Source: an uncultured Bacteroidota bacterium (lineage in GTDB: Bacteria > Bacteroidota > Bacteroidia > Chitinophagales > Chitinophagaceae). From it: a stretch of DNA of 64,000 bases. Shown one piece after another: positions 54,621-57,217 of the stretch; position 1 is the first letter of the stretch, and each line of letters opens with the position of its first letter. The position numbers and the translations under genes were made by a program. The stretch is from assembly GCA_903887005.1 (NCBI GenBank), contig CAISOH010000351.1, forward strand, positions 1 through 64,000, in the 5' to 3' direction. The notes beneath the pieces are model-generated. The model ran no database searches. It worked only from the letters and a program-made list of their open reading frames with translations, and was not told the origin of the DNA.

Positions 54621-55457
54621 ATGAATACAGAAATTGCCAAAGTCCTTAACAAAGAGGTGAATACCGTATTAAAGGCAAAGGCCCTTGAGGGGTTTGAAAA
54701 GGCTTACCTGCTTGCTGATTCCATTGAAAAGCTTCAAACTGCTTTAACCCCCCAATACATGCGGCCTATCATGGCATTACAGGGCAATAAGCTTGGTTTT
54801 AAAACAGACAAGGATAAGGACGGCGGGTATTCTGAACCAATTGTTAAGAATTGCCTTATTGAAGCTGTTTTGATTGGATTGCAGCCATTTGGGAACCAGT
54901 TTAACATCATTGCAGGCAACATGTACCCTACAAAGGAGGGCATGGGTTCTCTACTTGACCATTGGGAGGGGCTTTCGTATAAAATAAAGCCCCGGCTACC
55001 GCGCATTAATGCCTTAAAAGATGGCGCTGCTGTAGAAATGGAAGTTGAGTGGACAATGAATGCAGGTGTTAAAAAAACTGAAATATTAGACATCCCTGTT
55101 AAGATGAACTCAATGATGGGTGTAGATGCCGTAATTGGCAAGGCCACCCGTAAGGCCCGCGCTTGGTTATATCATACACTTAGTGGGTTTGAGATTGCGG
55201 ATGGGGATATAACAGACCTTCCTTCTGCTTCTATGCAGGCTAATGAGGAACTGGAGCCATGGAAAATACTTTTGAAGGATGTAAAAACCCTGCAAGAGTT
55301 AGAGGTTATTGAAAAGAGCAATGCAGAGCAGATTGCAGGTAGCCCATTAATACAGGGGTTATTTATAACCAAAAGAAATACATTTTTGAATTTATCGGGC
55401 AAGGATAAAGCGAGCCAGGCTACGAAGCAGGCTGAGGAGATGCTAAAAAAGAATTAA
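54621..55457 (+). CDS. recT: RecT-family single-strand annealing protein
   Basis: CLIEAVLIGLQPFGNQFNIIAGNMYPTKEGM...KATRKARAWLYHTLSG; near a YqaJ nuclease. Confidence 0.75.
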   Translation: MNTEIAKVLNKEVNTVLKAKALEGFEKAYLLADSIEKLQTALTPQYMRPIMALQGNKLGFKTDKDKDGGYSEPIVKNCLIEAVLIGLQPFGNQFNIIAGNMYPTKEGMGSLLDHWEGLSYKIKPRLPRINALKDGAAVEMEVEWTMNAGVKKTEILDIPVKMNSMMGVDAVIGKATRKARAWLYHTLSGFEIADGDITDLPSASMQANEELEPWKILLKDVKTLQELEVIEKSNAEQIAGSPLIQGLFITKRNTFLNLSGKDKASQATKQAEEMLKKN

Positions 55458-55520: not shown

Positions 55521-55625
55521 TGGGGAATAGCTTAATTGGAAGACCAATCGAAGCTAAGGAGATGGCCACCGGATGCAGAGATTATCCATCGAGGAGAGAT
55601 ATTCGTTCGAGTCGAATTTCCTCAA
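55521..55625 (+). ncRNA. Non-canonical tRNA-like RNA, copy 1
   Basis: Acceptor TGGGGAA (55521-55527)/TTCCTCA (55618-55624), A73 at 55625; T8 A9; D arm GCTTAATTGGAAGACC; T arm ATTCG-TTCGAGT-CGAAT; 55 nt between D and T arms without a clear 5-bp/7-nt anticodon arm. Confidence 0.7.
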
Positions 55626-55661
55626 CCGAATTTTTAAAAACCTTTTAAAACGATATACAAT

Positions 55662-56681
55662 ATGCTTACTGAATTAACTAAAGAGCAACAGCAACTAATG
55701 TTAACCGTCCGCGACAGGTGGATTAATTTAGCCTTAAAAGACAATAAAAAAGGCATAGATAAAGTGCTTTTTGAAGAAGGTATAACGTGGCTATATCAAG
55801 ACCTTTTAAAAAAGCCAAAGCCTAAAATTGTTTACTGCGATTCTTGGATAGGATGTTTATTGACAATTGCCATTTTTAAGAAAACCCCAAAAATAGATAT
55901 GTCCAGTGTGTGGGCCAGTGTGTGGGCCAGTGTGGGGGCCAGTGTGGGGGACAGTGTGTGGGCCAGTGTGGGGGCCAGTGTGGGGGACAGTGTGTGGGAC
56001 AGTGTGGGGGACAGTGTGGGGGAACATTCTGCATATAATGGCTGGTCAAACTTTGGATGGGTTTCTTTTTATGATTTTTTTGAAGAAATCAAAGTCCTTG
56101 ACAATTTTAAATTCAAGCAGTATAAAAAACTAATCAAGTCGAATGCTTTTGAAGCGTACGAATACGATAATTACATATTTGCAATACAGCCACCTATAAG
56201 CATCGTTAAAAACGATGCAAGCCGCTTACACAATCCAAAAGGGATGGCTGTTCAGTTTAAAGACGGAAGTGGTTATTATTTTATTAATGGCAGAAGTGTT
56301 CCTGCTTGGGTATTTGAAAAGGCAGAAACTGGAGATATTACCAAAGAGCTTTTTATTTCAGAAAAAAACAGCGATATAAAAGGGGCTATTTACGAAGTAT
56401 TGGGCCAGGTAAAAATGATGGAGTTGTTGGGAGCGGAGGAGATTGATAAGCAGAGTATCGTACATATGAACGGAGATATAGAAGTTGTAACCCTTTTAAA
56501 AACTAAAGATGTGTTTGCGGAGATAGACAACCAGCCTTTCGCGTGGGTTAAGATGATATGCCCTTCAACTGGCACCCAATACTTGCAGGGGGTTGAGCCT
56601 CACCATACGAACGCTTTAGAGGCAATTGCCAGTCTTAGTATGTTTAAAGCGGAAGAATACAGGTTTGATTTACGCAGTTAA
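55662..56681 (+). CDS. DUF6745-like protein with tetrapeptide repeats
   Basis: SVWASVWASVGASVGD... repeats, then SFYDFF...RLHNPKGMAVQFKDGSGYYFINGRSVPAWVFE...CPSTGTQYLQGVEP. Confidence 0.75.
   Translation: MLTELTKEQQQLMLTVRDRWINLALKDNKKGIDKVLFEEGITWLYQDLLKKPKPKIVYCDSWIGCLLTIAIFKKTPKIDMSSVWASVWASVGASVGDSVWASVGASVGDSVWDSVGDSVGEHSAYNGWSNFGWVSFYDFFEEIKVLDNFKFKQYKKLIKSNAFEAYEYDNYIFAIQPPISIVKNDASRLHNPKGMAVQFKDGSGYYFINGRSVPAWVFEKAETGDITKELFISEKNSDIKGAIYEVLGQVKMMELLGAEEIDKQSIVHMNGDIEVVTLLKTKDVFAEIDNQPFAWVKMICPSTGTQYLQGVEPHHTNALEAIASLSMFKAEEYRFDLRS
55905..56024 (+). repeat. 12-nt coding tandem repeat, 10 units
   Basis: Units AGTGTG(T/G)GGG(C/A)(C/A) encoding SV[WG][ADE], all in frame. Confidence 0.95.
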
Positions 56682-56710
56682 TTTCATTTTATAACTTTAA
56701 ATAAAAATCA

Positions 56711-57076
56711 ATGAACACGATTAAAGGGCACCAGGGCGATGTACAATTCCGCTCACTAAAAAATCTTCCGGAGGGAGCTACTAAAATAGAAAGTAAGCCG
56801 ATTGCGCTTAGGGAGCATAGCGGACACATGCATGTTCTCACGGGAGATGTACAGCATTTTGAGTTAAACGGCAAGCTTTATGCAGCAGTAGGTGGTGATG
56901 GAGCGCGGCTGCAGCATGTGCATGAAAGTAATTTTACGGCCAAATGCTGGCAGACAACGGAAGAATTGCCGGTTGCAGACCATAAAAGCCACCCTCTACC
57001 GGAGGGAGTGTACGAATTTTTTATTCAGAATAGCTACAACCCGTATGCGAAGCTGATGGAAAAGGTGATTGATTAA
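56711..57076 (+). CDS. Small histidine-motif protein partnered with the DUF6745-like gene
   Basis: QGDVQFRSLKNLPEGATKIE...LREHSGHMHVLTG...LQHVHESNF...LPEGVYEFFIQNSYNP. Confidence 0.7.
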   Translation: MNTIKGHQGDVQFRSLKNLPEGATKIESKPIALREHSGHMHVLTGDVQHFELNGKLYAAVGGDGARLQHVHESNFTAKCWQTTEELPVADHKSHPLPEGVYEFFIQNSYNPYAKLMEKVID

Positions 57077-57082
57077 TTTAGG

Positions 57083-57217
57083 TGGGGGATGTCGGAATGG
57101 TAGACGATTTCTGCATTGGTAAGACAGATATTAAGCAGATTGAAAAAGATATGAAAGCCCGCCACTGCACAACCAGAGGGCAATTGTATCATGCGGGTTC
57201 GAGTCCCGCTCCCTCAA
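57083..57217 (+). ncRNA. Non-canonical tRNA-like RNA, copy 2
   Basis: Acceptor TGGGGGA (57083-57089)/TCCCTCA (57210-57216), A73 at 57217; D arm TCGGAATGGTAGACGA; perfect T arm GCGGG-TTCGAGT-CCCGC; 85 nt between D and T arms with TCTGC/GCAGA stem and a long arm GATATGA..GCCC/GGGC..TTGTATC. Confidence 0.8.

Follow-up and report, generated by a model that had tools for sequence, protein, structure and literature searches.

Two enlarged tRNA-like RNAs bracketing a conserved DUF6745-QGDV gene pair in a Bacteroidota prophage

The prophage locus and its two tRNA-like RNAs

The stretch of DNA analyzed here, referred to as the window, comprises 64,000 nucleotides (nt) of contig CAISOH010000351.1 from an uncultured Chitinophagaceae bacterium (assembly GCA_903887005.1), and the locus of interest within it is part of a prophage. 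Two tRNA-like RNAs (RNA1 and RNA2) bracket two protein genes, one for a DUF6745 protein and one for a small protein termed QGDV, in the order RNA1, DUF6745, QGDV, RNA2 (Table 1). Each RNA lies no more than 60 nt from the gene pair, and RNA2 starts 6 nt past the QGDV stop codon. This arrangement and its coordinates had been proposed in a preliminary description made from the letters of the window, and were confirmed using a shape scan and a covariance model (R1). The YqaJ assignment of a nearby gene was upheld by Pfam, and the gene called RecT (54621-55457) returned no Pfam or PHROG match. The reading preferred here, with a probability of about one half, is that two independent things lie together: the RNAs would be phage tRNA mimics, and DUF6745-QGDV would be a separate accessory module. 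In support of this reading, R1, built from unrelated phages, finds both RNAs, and the RNAs and the pair each occur without the other.

Table 1. Features of the locus (positions are those of the window)
Feature	Position	Strand	Remarks
RNA1 (tRNA-like)	55521..55625	+	55521-55624 plus A55625; no canonical anticodon arm
DUF6745 gene, 339 residues	55662..56681	+	Pfam PF20530; aligned homologues
QGDV gene, 121 residues	56711..57076	+	aligned homologues; constant DUF6745 partner
RNA2 (tRNA-like)	57083..57217	+	57083-57216 plus A57217; R1 match, shape scan

Both RNAs keep the acceptor stem, the T arm, the D arm or elbow and A73 of a tRNA, and lack a canonical anticodon arm. All seven acceptor positions are paired in RNA1 (TGGGGAA/TTCCTCA) as in RNA2 (TGGGGGA/TCCCTCA), each with G3.U70 and A73. 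The T arms read ATTCG-TTCGAGT-CGAAT in RNA1 and GCGGG-TTCGAGT-CCCGC (5 base pairs (bp), 7-nt loop) in RNA2; the initial TGGGG and the T loop TTCGAGT are common to both, as first described. GG is present in both D loops, the RNA1 loop being enlarged and the RNA2 arm being of the Leu type (UCG/CGA, TGTCGGAATGGTAGACGA), and the middle of RNA2 holds a long hairpin on the anticodon side and a long variable arm. When compared with a canonical tRNA, both RNAs have the 7-bp acceptor and the 5-bp T arm with a 7-nt TTCRANY loop, and neither has an anticodon arm with a 5-bp stem, 7-nt loop, U33 and purine 37, even after removal of a single insertion. A shared internal-loop motif had also been reported; the two copies, GCAGAGATTA (55575-55584) and ACAGATATTA (57124-57133), are indeed identical at 8/10 positions, with no evidence that this exceeds chance.

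Within the 64 kb, the combined acceptor, D arm and T arm shape was found at RNA1 and RNA2 only, and in none of 20 Markov-resampled windows. Scans of the window by ARAGORN and Rfam gave no match at all, and BLAST searches with them against phages returned short fragments only, chiefly T arms. R1 was trained on 24 unrelated viral RNAs with the window RNAs left out. Its best match in the window was RNA2 (48.5 bits, E 9.6e-12) and its second best was RNA1 (22.5 bits, E 3e-4), followed by a match at E 0.9. Since R1 also matches ordinary class-II tRNAs, a match shows tRNA likeness, and the class discussed below is set apart by length and by the missing anticodon arm. Both RNAs match R1 and are longer than 95 nt, RNA1 belonging to the class more weakly.

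The DUF6745-QGDV pair and its link to the RNAs

The DUF6745 identity was retained, the protein scoring 27.9 bits against PF20530, just over the 27-bit Pfam gathering cut-off. Its middle part carries SVWASVG/SVGDSVW repeats, its C-terminal FAWVKMICPSTGTQYLQGVEPHHTNALEAIASLS is strongly conserved, and its AlphaFold model has a predicted local distance difference test (pLDDT) score of 79.5, with residues 76-122 below 50 (the repeat region is poorly modelled). The QGDV model scores 88.6. QGDV homologues conserve HQGDV, GHxH, LQHxHES, DH and IQNSYNP, and no Pfam, PHROG or NCBIfam family was found for this protein. A fold search of the PDB with both models gave no match below E 0.2; when QGDV was searched by sequence against the PDB, the matches were limited to designed SAKe proteins, along 31-41 residues, and were not taken as meaningful.

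Viral contigs were searched with the QGDV and DUF6745 alignments, yielding 28 and 20 loci, respectively. Wherever a viral locus had enough sequence, both genes were present and close together, in either order. Genomes of Chitinophaga, Bacteroidales, Dysgonamonadaceae and Alistipes also carry the pair, and outside Bacteroidota it extends to Actinobacteria, Alphaproteobacteria and Deinococcus as well as to cyanophage and mycobacterial prophage. QGDV relatives (E 6e-14 to 1e-3) immediately precede DUF6745 in Streptomyces (two plasmids), Methylobacterium, Deinococcus, Skermanella, a Mycolicibacterium plasmid, a Mycobacterium abscessus prophage and the Microcystis phage LMM01; in phage MW202476, the relative closely follows DUF6745. 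In Streptomyces, Methylobacterium and Deinococcus plasmids, the same two adjacent genes as in the window adjoin STM4011-STM4015 genes (radical SAM, hydrolase; L250, L381, L383 and L384) and have no tRNA-like RNAs, whereas the phage copies are without that cluster. Among open papers, no literature was found on DUF6745 or on STM4011-4015. The pairing, which had been suggested for other genomes in the preliminary description, is real and wide: DUF6745-QGDV is a genuine, ancient, near-obligate two-gene pair spanning phyla, usually without such RNAs, and this conserved unit is linked to a radical-SAM cluster.

In addition to the window, RNAs lie near the pair in L006, L016, L027, L029 and an Alistipes prophage (L034/L035/L055), and in L016, L027 and L029 the RNA lies between QGDV and DUF6745. 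Most other pair lineages have no RNA nearby (including L007, L010-L013, L024, L028 and L052-L054), no such RNA was found at ten DUF6745 loci from outside the Bacteroidota set (Streptomyces, Methylobacterium, Deinococcus, Skermanella, mycobacteria, Nostoc and phages), and dozens of RNA loci are without the pair. Co-location was determined across 19 pair-carrying viral contigs, whole or largely (1.12 Mb; 20 contigs with the window), counting an RNA when R1 E<1e-6 and length >95 nt. With a distance threshold chosen after seeing the data, 6/8 RNAs fell within 2.5 kb of the pair (1.1 expected, P 7e-5; 5/7 without the window, P 5e-4) and 4/8 within 500 nt (P 7e-4; 3/7 without the window, P 0.007). 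Such RNAs are thus rare in the pair-carrying contigs scanned, and most of them lie close to the pair. This link, although real, is loose, and fits cargo genes and RNA genes with a shared insertion region, or an optional partnership.

The preliminary description had gone further and proposed that the RNAs and both proteins form one functional unit. In such a unit, the RNAs would serve DUF6745 and QGDV as substrates, as guides or as partners of an antitoxin-like kind. The bracketing of the pair in the window, the clustering within 2.5 kb and the RNAs inside the pair argue for such a unit, and the absence of tRNA-like RNAs near other pairs, which had been named as the result that would refute it, was not what was found. 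However, the RNA does not hold as a constant partner, with most pair lineages lacking it and the RNAs being widespread without the pair, and a single unit was accordingly not upheld and is considered rather unlikely.

Several gaps in and around the pair held further elements. In the phages L016 (7756-7866) and L027 (10371-10510), the QGDV-DUF6745 gap contains another conserved sequence (GGTTGTRAGTGACT...GTAGATGTGGAACTCTCATT), probably a further non-coding RNA, and a short RNA-like element lies in the same gap in L014 (775-850; long closing stem TTTAGGTTGAG/CTCAACTTAAA) and L015 (750-825). Downstream of QGDV in L006 (10900-11900), the DNA is mostly non-coding for about 1 kb and contains a long hairpin, a 117-nt tRNA-like RNA, a weaker second R1 match and a tRNA assigned as Gly. 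Separate small open reading frames made up almost wholly of SQLxSQL repeats stand beside DUF6745 genes lacking the SVxA-type repeat in L003 (4610-5230) and L004 (4610-5700), as if the repeat domain were split off, and in the freshwater phages L018-L025 a GIY-YIG-like homing endonuclease frame, judged by eye, lies between QGDV and DUF6745.

A wider class of enlarged phage RNAs

RNA1 and RNA2 are members of a group of phage RNAs with a tRNA outer body, one that is widespread and apparently uncatalogued. The group was searched by pattern, which biases it toward Leu-type or class-I D arms, in metagenomic contigs without host assignment. The exact RNA2 D-arm pattern recovered L059 and L064, the latter with a 163-nt relative in a 77-kb contig that has no QGDV, and the pattern of a Leu-type D arm with an abnormally spaced T arm was matched in at least 116 contigs. 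Among the 80 matches listed, for which the D- and T-loop letters alone were required, the 7-bp acceptor is perfectly paired in 67 and the T stem in 75; they carry 39 different acceptor stems, and a 3' strand swapped between loci pairs in 2.7% of cases. The acceptor columns of the R1 alignment covary at 7/7 pairs, but its rows were picked for paired stems, so the strand-swap comparison is the unbiased figure. A73 is present in 53/72 clean Leu-like RNAs, and 27/72 share the acceptor AGTCAGG while their middles differ. No neighboring gene family was common to more than 3/80 loci. In open papers, the literature on enlarged phage tRNA-like RNAs was limited to introns in Lak megaphage tRNAs and to T4 RNA C and RNA D.

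A candidate helix seen in some families would form a pseudoknot by pairing the loop region with bases just 5' of the T arm. Compensatory changes were seen between L110 (GTAAC/GTTAC) and L130 (GCAAC/GTTGC), and between L115 (GAGCTTT/AAAGCTC) and L070 (GTTGTAAT/ATTACAGC), where the flanks are conserved. Across 60 RNAs, the candidate helices are slightly longer than those in shuffles (5.8 against 4.9), and a pseudoknotted middle domain, resting on few sequence pairs, is suggestive only.

One contig, L119 (7183-12206; IMGVR_UViG_3300042888_001929), carries about 14 copies of one AGTCAGG...CCTGACT acceptor/T-arm shell with unrelated middles, each copy measuring roughly 69-141 nt overall, interspersed with small open reading frames beside ordinary tRNAs. 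ARAGORN called 16 tRNAs there, one of them a shell copy (7688, called tRNA-Ser), and no AGTCAGG-shell array was found in cultured phage records.

The position of the RNAs in intergenic gaps directly past stop codons, both in the window and in the L119 array, together with a kept shell and a free middle, would also be expected if the shell were a cis-acting RNase P/RNase Z signal that separates mRNAs while the middle drifts. This processing punctuation is judged unlikely, as the candidate pseudoknots with compensatory changes would be needless in a spacer, although they come from few sequence pairs. Less probable again is that the RNAs are decaying tRNA pseudogenes; the absent canonical anticodon arm and the unconserved middles are in keeping with decay, but decay would not spare the acceptor, D and T stems, which stay fully paired despite sequence change, nor does it fit with the maintenance of some 14 copies in one contig.

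A separate group of enlarged tRNAs was recovered with the class-I D-arm pattern, matched in at least 120 contigs. In this group, 26/47 become valid tRNAs once one insertion of about 30-55 nt is removed (0.4 expected), the commonest site of the insertion being the 5' strand of the anticodon stem. Among the contigs L253-L332 (e.g. L291, L281, L319, L313, L305 and L269) are canonical tRNAs, several per contig, in which 40-55 nt are inserted after anticodon-stem position 28/29, frequently including an ACAGCAA motif; other insertions sit in the anticodon loop. The same single-removal test left the Leu-like class near chance (9/74 valid against 3.6 expected), and because the outcomes differ, two phenomena have to be kept apart, with the window RNAs outside the intron group. 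Thus, that RNA1 and RNA2 are ordinary phage tRNAs with a small intron, for which this second group and introns reported in Lak phage tRNAs (PMC6784885) give precedent, is very improbable, as no single removal turns either into a valid tRNA. A relaxed form of the shared motif RCAGAKATTA occurs in 7/53 intron-type tRNAs (0.4 expected) and in 1/74 of the Leu-like class; since it is not enriched in the latter, it was not used as evidence.

Possible roles and the nearest described RNAs

The half of a tRNA that RNA1 and RNA2 keep is the part read by processing enzymes, synthetases and EF-Tu. Judging from their shape, RNA1 and RNA2 may be matured by host RNase P, RNase Z and the CCA-adding enzyme. 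G3.U70 is a known determinant for alanyl-tRNA synthetase (AlaRS), and because both RNAs have it along with A73, charging by AlaRS is possible; in the wider set, G3.U70 is present in 0/72 Leu-like and 2/45 class-I enlarged RNAs. RNAs without decoding ability would be expected to act in trans on a host factor, and we infer that the mimics could occupy a tRNA-binding host factor as decoys, the likeliest targets being a defence that cuts or senses tRNA or a factor in translation control. Phage tRNAs are reported to defeat the tRNA-cutting defences retron-Eco7, PrrC and Septu (PMC11555353, PMC13096335). DUF6745-QGDV would then be a conserved cargo module carried in the same phage accessory region as the RNAs.

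Some points weigh against the reading of mimics beside an independent pair. The decoy step draws on shape and on precedents that used intact tRNAs rather than mimics; the R1 match to RNA1 is weak; RNA1 folds no better than its shuffles (z -0.7), which makes it the weaker case next to RNA2 (z -2.3, better than shuffles); and the RNAs and the pair are co-located beyond chance, for which independence must invoke a shared insertion preference. If this reading is correct, many tRNA-shaped phage RNAs have been missed by standard annotation or filed as undetermined tRNAs, and mimics without decoding ability would have roles outside translation.

Among known RNAs, the tRNA-like domain of transfer-messenger RNA (tmRNA) resembles RNA1 and RNA2 in having a charged-looking tRNA top half that carries G3.U70 and lacks an anticodon arm. 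RNA1 and RNA2 are much shorter than tmRNA, and no tag reading frame, Rfam tmRNA model match or ARAGORN match was found for them. Class-II tRNA(Leu) has the acceptor, T arm, A73 and (for RNA2) the Leu-type D arm in common with the window RNAs, but measures about 85 nt with a 5-bp/7-nt anticodon arm and U33, whereas the window RNAs are 105-135 nt without it. Lak tRNAs are similarly over-long and unclassifiable by ordinary tools; they are, however, whole tRNAs plus an insertion, which RNA1 and RNA2 are not.

The nearest described RNA is T4 RNA C (species 1 RNA), which with RNA D forms a set of small stable RNAs of unknown function (PMC3014915, PMC9697503). Like the window RNAs, it is a phage RNA of about 100-140 nt beside tRNAs, with a tRNA-like shell and a non-canonical anticodon region; unlike them, it has a 5' extension and sits in a tRNA cluster. 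Its 3' 92 nt match R1 (22 bits, E 2.5e-5), and as R1 scores any class-II tRNA, this match reflects the tRNA-like shell and not common descent. The mimics, if real, would offer a comparative family with which to approach the role of T4 RNA C, a question that has stood for decades. A broader version, doubtful but conceivable, is that a large phage family of non-decoding mimics, with a constant top half and a fast-changing, sometimes pseudoknotted payload replacing the anticodon arm, is deployed against tRNA-directed defences, that DUF6745-QGDV works with them in some phages, and that T4 RNA C belongs to this family without having been recognised. The matching part of T4 RNA C (L182:1410-1501; rnaC of NC_000866, - strand) has a canonical T arm and a 7-bp acceptor (CGGAACG/CGTTTCG) that includes G3.U70, and its anticodon loop seems enlarged.
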